Shown one piece after another: positions 29,218 to 51,946 of a DNA stretch of 64,000 bases (the stretch's first letter is position 1; every line of letters starts with the position of its first letter). Both the position numbers and the translations under genes were made by a program. Under the pieces are notes generated by a model. That model made no database searches and had not been told where the DNA came from. It saw nothing but the letters and a program-made list of their open reading frames with translations. The stretch is from Thermococcus celer Vu 13 = JCM 8558 (lineage in GTDB: Archaea; Methanobacteriota_B; Thermococci; Thermococcales; Thermococcaceae). The stretch spans positions 682,001-746,000 of the forward strand of contig NZ_CP014854.1 in NCBI RefSeq assembly GCF_002214365.1. Direction: 5' to 3'.

Positions 29218-30312
29218 TTGGATGGCGTCCAAACACTCGTACTCGCCGAGGCTTTGATGGTTTTGATAGCCGACCTGGTGGCGGCGGGGTTGATATTCAG
29301 GATATACCTCCGTAACAAGCGAAAATCTGCCATGGCCTTCTCTCTTGCATGGATGTTCGACTTCCTGGCGATGCTCTCGATGGTCTCCACGAACCAGACG
29401 CTCCAGATGGCGGGCATGCTCTTCCTCCCCACGTTCTCGGGCTTTCTGTTCTACGGTGCGGTGAAGTTCCTTGAGGAGGAGTCGATGGCAGTCGGATACA
29501 AACCCCTCAAGATACTTGCGACAATGCCTCCTGCATTCATGGCCTATATGCTCGGGGTGTACGTTTACACAGGGGACGCGTTCTGGACGACCACCAGCGC
29601 CGCCACCCTCGGCATAAGCGGGGTGTTCGTCACGGCCGGCGGCCTTTTGCTCAAGGAAACCGAGGAGATCTACAAGAGTGCGGTTAAGTACCTCTACATC
29701 AGTGTAATACTGTTCGGCCTCCACCTGATTCCGGCGGCGCTGTTTGGAGGGGAGGAGTGGTACCTGCCGATAGGCTTCAGCCTTTCCACGATTCTTATAA
29801 TAAGCATGGTAGTAGCTATGGTGAAGCTCACCTCGTCGGAGTCGTTCATACCCCGGGAAGTGGGACCAATCCGGCCCGTTGACCTTAAGCCGGGTGTTAT
29901 GGTGGTCAACGGAAAGGAATACCAGAAGCTCATGGAGAAACTCAAGGAAATGTCGGTTCTGGCGTTCGTCAGGGAAGTCACCCAGCTTCCGGAGGGGTGG
30001 CAGTACTACTTCGTGACGACCGTGCCGTTCCGTGGAAGGTTCAAGAACACCATAAACCCGACGGACCTCGCGAGAATAACCGAAATCTCGTACAAATACC
30101 TCGAAGAATCCTCCCGGAGGGGGGAACAGGGCGTAATCGTAATCGACTGCCTTGAGTACCTTATCGTCTACAACTCCTGGGAGAGCCTCATGAAGTTCCT
30201 CTCGAAGCTCAGGGACTTCGTTGTGGTCAACAGGGGTACCCTAATACTCGTCATCGAGAAGGAGAGCCTTGAAACCCGACTCTACGCCCAGCTCAGGAAG
30301 CTCATGGAGTGA
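29218..30312 (+). CDS. DUF835 membrane protein
   Basis: A 364-residue protein with about seven N-terminal membrane helices (residues 5-200) and a cytosolic C-terminal DUF835 domain (about residues 215-364: MVVNGKEYQKL, then EQGVIVIDCLEYLIVYN, ending LETRLYAQLRKLM). DUF835 is a Thermococcales-rich domain of unknown role that resembles P-loop-fold regulators of the MEDS type. The start is a TTG at 29218, chosen because GGGGTGA lies 6 bases upstream and no ATG or GTG in frame does better. Six bases after the previous stop, it is clearly in the same operon as the short adenylate-forming-like protein. Confidence 0.8.
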   Translation: MDGVQTLVLAEALMVLIADLVAAGLIFRIYLRNKRKSAMAFSLAWMFDFLAMLSMVSTNQTLQMAGMLFLPTFSGFLFYGAVKFLEEESMAVGYKPLKILATMPPAFMAYMLGVYVYTGDAFWTTTSAATLGISGVFVTAGGLLLKETEEIYKSAVKYLYISVILFGLHLIPAALFGGEEWYLPIGFSLSTILIISMVVAMVKLTSSESFIPREVGPIRPVDLKPGVMVVNGKEYQKLMEKLKEMSVLAFVREVTQLPEGWQYYFVTTVPFRGRFKNTINPTDLARITEISYKYLEESSRRGEQGVIVIDCLEYLIVYNSWESLMKFLSKLRDFVVVNRGTLILVIEKESLETRLYAQLRKLME

Positions 30313-30319
30313 GGGCAGA

Positions 30320-30327
30320 TTTATATA
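30320..30327 (+). promoter_or_regulatory. TATA box for the H/ACA-like RNA
   Basis: TTTATATA begins 28 bases before the predicted 5' end of the structured RNA (about 30348) and directly after the DUF835 stop. The fit in spacing supports an independent non-coding transcript. Confidence 0.65.
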
Positions 30328-30347
30328 CTCCCCTCTTCTATCCCCTA

Positions 30348-30562
30348 CTGCCCCCGCGCGAGGACCCCGGGGAGGATGAACCGGGGGGCGATGCGGGGGC
30401 TACAGCTCGGCCCCAGCGAGGTCCCCGCGGGAGGGCCTTCCGCGTTACGGAGCACGATGGCCGCGGGAAACCCGGGCCGAGTACAGCACGGCCCGCCTGG
30501 GTTAACCCGCCCGAGTTCGCCGTGAGGCACCGATGGGGGCGGGGGTTACGGGCGGGCCATAG
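30348..30562 (+). ncRNA. Three-hairpin H/ACA-like guide RNA
   Basis: A GC-rich stretch that folds into three successive H/ACA-type hairpins, each closed by a perfect 8-bp stem and followed one base later (or directly) by an ANA box. Hairpin 1: stem 30350-30357 with 30393-30400, then ACA at 30402-30404. Hairpin 2: 30406-30413 with 30474-30481, then ACA at 30483-30485. Hairpin 3: 30490-30497 with 30551-30558, then ATA at 30559-30561. Each has an internal pocket, an upper stem (for example CCCCGG/CCGGGG) and a GAG...GATG element typical of the archaeal L7Ae k-turn or k-loop. Orientation follows from the boxes. It would direct pseudouridine formation in rRNA with Cbf5, Nop10, Gar1 and L7Ae. Targets were not determined. 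Confidence 0.82.
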
Positions 30563-30687
30563 CCAATTTCCCTTACCTTCGGATTGAACCACATATTTTT
30601 GGTTAAGGTCCACGGTTTTCAAACTCGATACGTCCAATGTACCGAAAAGGTTTAAAATGATGAGTCAATATTTACATAAGTGGTACC

Positions 30688-30900
30688 ATGATAATTGCCG
30701 GGAGGGATAAATGGAAGGTACTCCTCAGGTACTACCCTCCCTGGGACGGTCGTCCCCTGAAGAGGAGGAAGAAAAGGAAGGCGGAGGTCACCGAGGTACT
30801 CGGGATGCTCGGTGATCCGCGGAAGCTCAAGGACCTCCCCGAGGACGTGCGTGCCCTCTTGAGATCCCTCTATTCCGAGGCCCTCCTTCAGGAGGCATAG
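30688..30900 (+). CDS. Small basic hypothetical protein
   Basis: A 70-residue protein that begins MIIAGRDKWKVLLRYYPPW, has a very basic centre (RPLKRRKKRKAE) and an acidic-amphipathic C-terminal half with LKDLPEDVRALLRSLYSEAL, likely two helices. The basic patch suggests nucleic-acid contact, but this is inference. A TATA-like GGTTTAAAATG lies about 40 bases upstream and an AATATTTACATAAG closer. It is convergent with moeA, ending one base from its stop. The family is not recognised. Confidence 0.65.
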   Translation: MIIAGRDKWKVLLRYYPPWDGRPLKRRKKRKAEVTEVLGMLGDPRKLKDLPEDVRALLRSLYSEALLQEA

Positions 30901-30901
30901 C

Positions 30902-32092
30902 TCAGTAGAGCACTACCTCCACGGTTTCTCCCTCGAGGTAGCCCTCGCTGTCCTCAGGAATCCCTATGTATCCGTTGCTCTCCACCACCGAGCTTATTAT
31001 TCCGCTACCCTTCTTCTTTATCGGCCGTGCAACGCCGTTCTCGTACCGCACTTTGACGAACTCGTAGCGCCCGAGCTGGCTCGGGACCCGCTCGGTGAGC
31101 TTTGCCTTGACCCTGACCTCGTAGTCCCTTGCTCCCGTGAGCTTCGCGAGGGCGTGCTTGACGTAGAGGTGAAACTGGGCGAAGGCGCTAACCGGATAAC
31201 CGCTCATCACGAAGACCCTCTCGCCGTACCCCATCGGCCGGCCCGGCTTTATCGTCGTTCCGTGGAAGAGGAGCTTCACGAAGCGGTGGGCGAAGTCCTT
31301 ATCGCCGAACGCAGAGCCGCCGGTTATCAGAACGAGGTCGTTCTCCTCCTTTGCTTTTCCCAGCGTCTCCCCTATAACCCCCTCGTCATCTGGAAGGACG
31401 CCGTAGAAGACGGGTTCCCCGAAGTACCTCTTGACGAGCCCCTCGAGCATTATCGAGTTGCTCTCCATGATCTTCCCCGAATTAAGGGCCTCCTCGTCGA
31501 ACTCCTCCACCAGCTCGTCGCCCGTGATTATTATCCCGACGCGGGGCTTCCTCTTGACCTCCACCTTTTTGAAGCCAAGGCTTTTGAGCAGTGCCAGATC
31601 CTGGGGCCTTAGAACCTGCCCCTTTCTGAGAACGACTTCCCCCTTCCTGACGTCCTCGCCGGCGAAGGCCACGTTCTGGCCCGGTGCGACAGGCCTCAGA
31701 ACCCTTATGACGTCTCCTTCTCTTTCGGCCATCTCCTGCATCAGTACCGCGTTCGCCCCCTCAGGTATCTTCGCCCCGGTAGTAAGTTTCACCGCGGTTC
31801 CCGGCTCGACCTTCACTTTGCTCGCTTCCCCCGCGGTTATCTCGTCTATTACCTTGATTTCGACCGGTCTGTACTCCCTCGCCTGGAACGTGTCCTCAGC
31901 CCTCACCGCGTAGCCGTCCACGGCCGACCTGTCGAAGGGCGGGCTATCGATGGGGGAGACAACGTCCTCCGCGAGCACCCTTCCCAGCGCTTCCCCGAGC
32001 TCAACCTCTTCCGTCTCCGGGATCTCGCTCAAGTCTTCGAGCAAAAGTCGCAAAGCCTCGCGATAGGGCGTGAGGCTCTTCAGTTCCTTCAT
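30902..32092 (-). CDS. moeA: Molybdopterin molybdenumtransferase
   Basis: A 396-residue MoeA, which inserts molybdate (or tungstate in these organisms) into adenylylated molybdopterin. Features: the N-terminal linker with PPFDRSAVDGYAVR, the catalytic domain segment ITTGDELVE, TGGSAFGDKD and GRPMGYG, and a C-terminal beta domain starting near residue 325. In archaea with tungsten enzymes, MoeA paralogues may specialise in one metal, which cannot be told here. GGGAGTGAG precedes ATG 32092. It follows moaB with its start one base before the moaB stop region, so the two genes form an operon transcribed leftward. Confidence 0.96.
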   Translation of the reverse strand: MKELKSLTPYREALRLLLEDLSEIPETEEVELGEALGRVLAEDVVSPIDSPPFDRSAVDGYAVRAEDTFQAREYRPVEIKVIDEITAGEASKVKVEPGTAVKLTTGAKIPEGANAVLMQEMAEREGDVIRVLRPVAPGQNVAFAGEDVRKGEVVLRKGQVLRPQDLALLKSLGFKKVEVKRKPRVGIIITGDELVEEFDEEALNSGKIMESNSIMLEGLVKRYFGEPVFYGVLPDDEGVIGETLGKAKEENDLVLITGGSAFGDKDFAHRFVKLLFHGTTIKPGRPMGYGERVFVMSGYPVSAFAQFHLYVKHALAKLTGARDYEVRVKAKLTERVPSQLGRYEFVKVRYENGVARPIKKKGSGIISSVVESNGYIGIPEDSEGYLEGETVEVVLY

Positions 32093-32093
32093 C

Positions 32094-32609
32094 TCACTCC
32101 CTCCCGTGCTTGAGGACGTGACCCGCTTCCCTCAGGATTATCTTTATCCCGGTTTTGGCCGCTCCGAGGCTCCCCGGCAGGCAGAAGACCGCCATGGCCC
32201 GTCCCGAGCTCCTGATGATCCCGGCGGTCGCCCTCGTCATGACCGCCGCGGTTCCTATCTCCTCGTAGCTTAACAGTCTGAAGACCTCGCCGAAACCCGT
32301 CAATTCCTTATCGAAGAGCGGTCTGACGCTCTCTATCGTCACGTCCCTGCTCGTTATCCCCGTTCCCCCCGAGGTAACCACCACATCGGCACCCTTCTCG
32401 AAAGCCTCGACTACCGCCCCGATTATCCCCATCCTCTCGTCGGGGACTACTTTATACAGAACCCGCTCGTGTCCTGCCTTCTCCAGCTCCTCAACGAGGA
32501 ACCTCCCGCTTCCGTCCTCCTTCTCGCCCCGGCTCGCGGTGTCGCTGACCGTTATGACGGCGAAGCGAAACCTCTTCGGGGCCTTCTTCCTGTGCTCCTC
32601 GACGCCCAT
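32094..32609 (-). CDS. moaB: Molybdopterin adenylyltransferase
   Basis: A 171-residue MoaB, which in archaea takes the MogA role and adenylylates molybdopterin before metal insertion. Family motifs are FAVITVSDTASRGEKED, VVPDE, VVTSGGTGITSRDVT and the closing FCLPGSLGAAKTG. I place the start at ATG 32609 (MGVEEHRKK), which has GGGGTGATGG upstream; the frame is open for 39 more codons, but those contain no ribosome site and no family similarity. First gene of the moaB-moeA pair. Divergent from cbiZ, with about 100 bases between. Confidence 0.95.
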   Translation of the reverse strand: MGVEEHRKKAPKRFRFAVITVSDTASRGEKEDGSGRFLVEELEKAGHERVLYKVVPDERMGIIGAVVEAFEKGADVVVTSGGTGITSRDVTIESVRPLFDKELTGFGEVFRLLSYEEIGTAAVMTRATAGIIRSSGRAMAVFCLPGSLGAAKTGIKIILREAGHVLKHGRE

Positions 32610-32711
32610 ACCATCACCCCGGTTAAACTCGACCCTGGACTTAATAGGCTTTAGGCAAACGAAGGCGTTTAACGGCGCAAGCGTTATATCCCCCATAACC
32701 GATGTGCCCCC

Positions 32712-33302
32712 ATGGAGTCGGAGCATTTCATCCTGCCCTTCGATGGATCGATGCTATCCTTGAGCAACGCGCCCCACAGAGGGGGTTTAACACGGGCAAA
32801 CGGCTTCTTCTTCATGAGGGTCCCGAAGAACTACTCCGGCGATTATAAGCGGGACTGCGCGGAATTCGAGGAGAAACACAGGCTCAGGGACTTCGTGGGC
32901 TTCATGACGGCCGCCGAGGTAAGGAACGTCCTGGCCGTCGCGAGGAGCGGGAGCGTTAAAGCCTACGTGACCGCCGGGATCACGAACCCCGCCATCGCAG
33001 GCGAGGAACCGCCTCCCTGGAAACCGGGGACGATAAACGTGGCGCTCGTGATAAACGAAGGATTAACGGTGGGGGCGATGGCCAACGCGATAATGACCGC
33101 GACCGAGGCAAAAACTTACACCCTGCTGAGGCTCGGCTACAACGCCACGGGCACGACGAGCGACGGCATCGGGGTCTTCGCCTTCGAGGGCGAGGTGGAG
33201 TGGGCGGGAACTGCCACGGCCCTCGGGATGAGCATCGGAAGGGCCGTCAGGAAAGCGCTCGAGGAGAGCCTGCGGAGATGGGAAAGGACAAGGCGGAAAT
33301 GA
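32712..33302 (+). CDS. cbiZ: Adenosylcobinamide amidohydrolase
   Basis: A 196-residue CbiZ, which removes the aminopropanol side chain of adenosylcobinamide to give adenosylcobyric acid, the archaeal way of salvaging scavenged cobinamide. Typical segments are LSNAPHRGG, AYVTAGITNPAIAG, the GTINVALVINEGLTVGAMA run and TATEAKTYTLL with TGTTSDGIGV. It is the first member of a dispersed set of cobinamide-salvage genes running to 44.7 kb. TATA-like GTTATATCCC (about 32683-32692) gives a short or absent leader for ATG 32712. Convergent with the cobT-like gene. Confidence 0.93.
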   Translation: MESEHFILPFDGSMLSLSNAPHRGGLTRANGFFFMRVPKNYSGDYKRDCAEFEEKHRLRDFVGFMTAAEVRNVLAVARSGSVKAYVTAGITNPAIAGEEPPPWKPGTINVALVINEGLTVGAMANAIMTATEAKTYTLLRLGYNATGTTSDGIGVFAFEGEVEWAGTATALGMSIGRAVRKALEESLRRWERTRRK

Positions 33303-51868: not shown

Positions 51869-51946
51869 TGGTGCCCCGGCCGGGATTTGAACCCGGGGCG
51901 CGGGCTCGAAAGGCCCGCATGTTTGACCGGGCTACACCACCGGGGC
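51869..51946 (-). tRNA. tRNA-Glu (UUC)
   Basis: Read on the minus strand from 51946, the acceptor stem GCCCCGG pairs with CCGGGGC, followed by A and an encoded CCA (51871-51869). The anticodon stem is CGGGC/GCCCG with loop CUUUCGA, giving anticodon UUC. The T arm CCGGGTTCAAATCCCGG is standard. It lies 17 bases beyond the stop of the small transporter and is transcribed convergently to it. No intron is present. Confidence 0.97.

Follow-up and report, generated by a model that had tools for sequence, protein, structure and literature searches.

The HgcG (Pab40) guide RNA gene of Thermococcus celer and the question left in its second hairpin

Screening the whole 64-kb stretch of DNA analysed here (the window) against Rfam 15 yielded two matches above gathering score, a tRNA at 51872-51946 and the archaeal RNA HgcG (Pab40, RF00064). 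A covariance-model search for H/ACA RNA had been proposed when hairpins were originally predicted at this site, and the HgcG match answers it, scoring 180 bits where the gathering score is 77 (E 1.6e-50). It spans the entire model, the first part of which (positions 1 to ~57) corresponds to upstream and promoter DNA, and it is the single HgcG match at E 0.001 in the organism's own genome. The gene, its parts and its neighbours are listed in Table 1.

Table 1. Features of the HgcG locus and its surroundings (positions within the window)
Feature	Positions	Strand	Remarks
DUF835 protein	29218-30312	+	stop codon ends 7 bases upstream of the TATA box
RF00064 (HgcG) covariance-model match	30292-30566	+	entire model, 1-276
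TATA box TTTATATA	30320-30327	+	archaeal promoter of the RNA gene, from sequence
Hairpin I (Pab40.1-like)	30350-30404	+	stem 30350-30400, ACA 30402-30404
Hairpin I closing stem	30350-30357/30393-30400	+	8 bp
Hairpin I GA stem	30364-30373/30378-30387	+	
Hairpin I pocket	5' 30358-30363; 3' 30388-30391	+	GCGAGG and GCGA; predicted target 23S U2592
Hairpin II (Pab40.2-like)	30405-30485	+	stem 30405-30482, ACA 30483-30485
Hairpin II closing stem	30405-30413/30474-30482	+	9 bp
Hairpin II upper stem	30424-30430/30461-30467	+	CCCGCGG
Hairpin II apical helix	30439-30442/30448-30451	+	UCCG/CGGA
Hairpin II pocket	5' 30414-30423; 3' 30469-30473	+	3' strand AACCC; candidate targets 23S U2682 or U1937
Hairpin III (Pab40.3-like)	30490-30561	+	stem 30490-30558, ATA 30559-30561
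Hairpin III closing stem	30490-30497/30551-30558	+	8 bp
Hairpin III upper stem	30506-30512/30537-30543	+	C-stem 30519-30521/30526-30528
Hairpin III pocket	5' 30499-30504; 3' 30545-30549	+	GGGUUA and GUUAC; predicted target 23S U2021
70-aa ORF	30688-30900	+	directly downstream of the RNA gene; no Pfam match
MoeA-type gene next to a MoCF_biosynth (molybdopterin-binding) domain gene	30902-32726	-	Pfam; downstream of the 70-aa ORF

The original prediction, made from the raw sequence, was of three consecutive H/ACA hairpins in one RNA, and these are borne out on the + strand at 30350-30561. Its TATA spacing of 28 bases, counted from the first TATA base to 30348, is correct, and 30350 is the likelier start; a TATA-like stretch is held in position in most of 78 aligned loci, and the flank further upstream is variable. 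The 8-bp closing stem that it gave to every hairpin is found in I and III, and that of II has one pair more. The box endings are ACA, ACA and ATA, as had been read. Among the 78 aligned orthologs, boxes 1 and 2 are always ACA (78/78) and box 3 is ACA in 47 and ATA in 31, so the ATA of this copy is a normal variant. In all three hairpins, 14 nt separate the closing position of the GA stem from the ANA box, a spacing that lies within the 14-15 nt rule for archaeal H/ACA RNAs (PMC4652768). The k-turn-like part was recognized correctly in hairpin I, which has canonical tandem sheared G-A pairs; hairpins II and III depart from that description, since one pair reads G-G in each and they carry UGG, whereas most relatives have UGA. 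The GG lies on the 3' side of the k-turn (30459-30460 in II and 30535-30536 in III), where 68/78 and 65/78 of the sequences, respectively, have GA and 10/78 and 13/78 are GG-type copies.

The alignment comprises 78 of the 88 family loci above cut-off, including the window's own copy, with ten outside; four further loci (L062-L065) that are distant or of another family were kept out. Standard pairs fill 99.0% of the 4048 cells of an eight-helix structure, 26 of its 52 pairs show two-sided changes, and on each of five measures it outdoes all 500 shuffles. Sliding the pairing partners leaves 32-55% paired, a comparison in which the structure is favoured because it was drawn from the window's own sequence; the paired changes in relatives are independent of that. 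The stems are thus kept in relatives with compensatory changes, as the original prediction implied. The pocket strands are similarly constant, with GCGAGG and GCGA of hairpin I each found in 78/78 sequences, and GGGUUA and GUUAC of hairpin III in 77/78 and 76/78. The fold z-score is -2.61, with equally good folding in 2/200 shuffles, and since the stretch is very GC-rich, fold energy by itself is weak evidence; together with the covariation and the E-value of the RF00064 match, it places the structure beyond chance.

Two reading frames, of 92 aa (30309-30587, +) and 99 aa (30338-30637, -), are both open across the hairpins, and a protein encoded by one of them could in principle be the real gene, with the hairpins as a by-product. 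Neither ORF has a Pfam match at E 0.001, however, evolution of the HgcG region proceeds through paired base changes, and 1- and 2-base indels inside it in relatives point to broken frames, so that we give this explanation practically no chance. We conclude, with a probability of about 0.96, that the locus is the HgcG/Pab40 gene, which encodes a three-hairpin box H/ACA guide RNA made as one transcript from the TATA promoter with a start near 30350. In Thermococcales archaea, the three-part HgcG directs pseudouridine formation in rRNA, and both transcription and in-vitro guide activity are known for orthologs (PMC4652768, PMC2584109, PMC6138745); the present copy is presumably transcribed and active as well. 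The pseudouridine guide of multi-hairpin archaeal type that had been proposed without a name is therefore supported and can be called HgcG/Pab40 (RF00064). A formerly unnamed find is settled as an already described gene, of which this is an ordinary copy, and a reading from raw sequence alone is confirmed. The question left in HgcG concerns hairpin II alone, namely its fold, its target and its invariant strand.

HgcG is above cut-off in all 61 genomes of the genus and in 88 of the 94 family genomes, the six without a match being 61-80% complete; in near-complete family genomes (at least 90% complete, at most 5% contaminated) it is above cut-off in 74/74. Of the 115 genomes of the wider group (phylum), 88 exceed the cut-off, and a match of E 0.001 or better is present in 91. 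Loci L062, L063 and L064, from other families of the class, are divergent and fall below the cut-off (62.7, 62.7 and 35.3 bits). The hairpin I pocket strand GCGAGG is kept in all of these (in L062 within 150-500 on the - strand), and the pocket strands of the second hairpin of L062 are quite different. Weak second HgcG matches occur in 15 genomes of the genus and, in the family survey, in G068. The idea that they are paralogs was rejected at the one locus looked at (L065, 192-312 on the - strand, in another genome of the genus), which is HgcE (75.3 bits). The match in genome G064 lies at 382332-382604, and because these are the published coordinates of HgcG in P. abyssi (382,332-604; PMC4652768), this locus (L035) is very probably the P. 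abyssi gene. The present copy aligns with it over the full length, which makes it by sequence an ortholog of P. abyssi Pab40.

We scanned the 673 uridines of the 16S and 23S rRNA of the same genome; for hairpins I and III the 14-nt rule fixed the register, and for hairpin II we used two. Hairpin I has one acceptable site, 23S U2592 (-11.0 kcal/mol), and so does hairpin III, 23S U2021 (-8.9 kcal/mol); each is equalled in 2/60 shuffled rRNA sets, which are crude in that they move blocks of three bases. The pairing of pockets to rRNA that the original prediction had expected thus holds in this register for two of the hairpins, and for hairpin II (at U2682) solely with its closing apposition opened. 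The choice of register matters: U2592 is best in one of three registers of hairpin I, as is U2588 when P. abyssi rRNA is used, and U2021 is best in one of eight registers of hairpin III, 16S U643 being best in four and other sites in three. P. abyssi numbering was transferred with an offset of +26 in the locus, the sole offset between -60 and +60 that gives a U at eight published positions. With it, P. abyssi 2588 and 2016 become U2592 and U2021, and the numbering of the present 23S rRNA agrees with that of T. kodakarensis at 2589, 2592 and 2607. In P. abyssi, U2588 is a Pab40 site in vitro (PMC6138745), and L2016 is likewise a Pab40 site (PMC4652768, PMC2584109). U2021 lies in the helix 69 loop (GUAAC-U-AUAAC), at the site equivalent to E. 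coli 1915 (PMC2584109). Hairpins I and III are accordingly predicted to address the equivalents of the published Pab40 sites.

The genome encodes Cbf5, Nop10, Gar1 and L7Ae (452.6, 96.7, 35.2 and 188.5 bits). Each hairpin would be expected to bind L7Ae via its k-turn and Cbf5-Nop10-Gar1 via its ANA box and pocket, and its two pocket strands would form duplexes with 23S rRNA that flank a single uridine, the residue that Cbf5 would convert to pseudouridine. This uridine would be U2592 for hairpin I, U2021 for hairpin III, and U2682 or U1937 for hairpin II.

The inner helices that Rfam draws for hairpin II are 81.0% and 72.2% paired in the 78 sequences (12 of 14 inner pairs counted). Three of the pairs are broken in 71, 71 and 67 of the 78, with both-side changes in none. 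We rejected these helices, as they are broken in most orthologs; the misfit concerns the structure line of the model for 78 Thermococcales sequences and leaves the membership of the present copy unaffected. An alternative upper stem, the one given in Table 1, is 99.3% paired and has one pair that occurs in five forms, and it comprises ten layers up to the k-turn when the C-A apposition 30423/30468 is counted. This stem is also the choice of RNAalifold, which in addition pairs some bases of the pocket with one another. Because it includes the covarying closing stem, the whole Rfam-type structure still beats 500/500 shuffles on three measures (covariation score, cells paired and cells changed on both sides); by pairs changed on both sides 147/500 shuffles are as good, and by further pair types all 500 are. 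The 78-ortholog alignment therefore suggests that the Rfam structure of hairpin II needs revision.

In the strict ten-layer register, hairpin II has no good site in the rRNA, the best being 16S U970 (-2.1 kcal/mol, 33/60 shuffles as good). With the C-A apposition opened, GGUC and AACCCGG flank U2682 (GGGUU-U-AGACC) with 11 pairs at -12.4 kcal/mol, equalled in 2/60 shuffles. A relaxed scan that allows gaps of 1-4 ranks U2682 first and U1937 sixth (-7.7 kcal/mol, gap 2). We take U2682 to be the E. coli 2586 position, from the E. coli sequence and the numbering used in PMC2584109. The same paper reports that no pseudouridine was found at this position in P. abyssi. U1937 corresponds to P. abyssi 1932, which is the published Pa40.2 site, for which a table note gives the fold model Pa40.2-L1932 (PMC4652768). 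Its downstream duplex, formed with the 5' strand, reaches 8 pairs in 49/78 sequences and has at most 3 in 29/78. Both uridines are candidate targets of hairpin II, U2682 as the best pairing here and U1937 as the equivalent of the published site. Ten bases of the 5' strand, AGCGAGGUCC (30415-30424), are invariant in 78/78 sequences, which exceeds the needs of either. Since neither proposed site explains the invariant pocket strand, the target of hairpin II deserves a direct test.

An H/ACA-shaped RNA in which hairpins I and III alone are active and hairpin II is no longer a guide, serving instead as a scaffold or tether, would fit the lack of a well-scoring site in the strict register and the 8-pair duplex at U1937 in only part of the orthologs, as well as the ability of the pocket strands to pair together (GGU with ACC, 78/78) and their very different sequence in L062 from another family. 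We consider this unlikely, given that the pocket strands AGCGAGGUC and AACCC are both invariant (78/78), that the spacing to the ACA box is canonical, that a fold model for Pa40.2 with L1932 has been published (PMC4652768), and that every hairpin of Pf7, the P. furiosus RNA, is called capable of guiding a modification (PMC2584109).

Part of the 5' strand, AGCGAGGU, is complementary to 23S 2593-2600, a stretch also paired by hairpin I. Such 8-nt complementarity occurs in 24/500 shuffled rRNA sets, and the match may be due to chance or may be a trace of a shared origin of hairpins I and II. In a very improbable reading, hairpin II would be something other than an ordinary guide for one site: during assembly it would tether two regions of domain V, or it would act with hairpin I as the RNA that the orphan pseudouridine 2589 lacks. 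The 5' strand AGCGAGGU would then dock on 2593-2600, beside the target of hairpin I, and the 3' strand AACCC(GG) on 23S 2675-2681. PMC6138745 reports the RNA component for pseudouridine 2589 as unidentified in T. kodakarensis, and says that none of the sRNPs built with P. abyssi guides made this modification in vitro. This failure and the frequency of the 8-nt match in shuffles speak against this reading. A guide hairpin with U2682 or U1937 as candidate target remains our preferred reading of hairpin II.

The closest known system is HgcG/Pab40 of P. abyssi (L035), which by sequence comparison has the same order of three hairpins, the TATA promoter and the same 23S target positions, with identical pocket core sequences in hairpins I and III. 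The present copy differs from it in its third box (ATA, not ACA), in a shorter 5' pocket side of hairpin I (GCGCGAGG versus GCAAGCGAGG), in a spacer before hairpin III, and in G-G for one sheared G-A pair in hairpins II and III. HgcE/Pab105 (RF00060) is also an H/ACA RNA and weakly resembles the present RNA in hairpin III and the part preceding it, scoring 20.2 bits for the present locus, below its gathering score of 50. Pf7 (P. furiosus) and Tko1 (T. kodakarensis) are counterparts of HgcG that we name from papers only. Further afield, HP1 and HP2 of Haloferax volcanii are homologs of hairpins II and III by description (PMC2584109), and Af4.3 of the Archaeoglobus fulgidus RNA Afu4 is described as related to Pa40.3 (PMC4652768).
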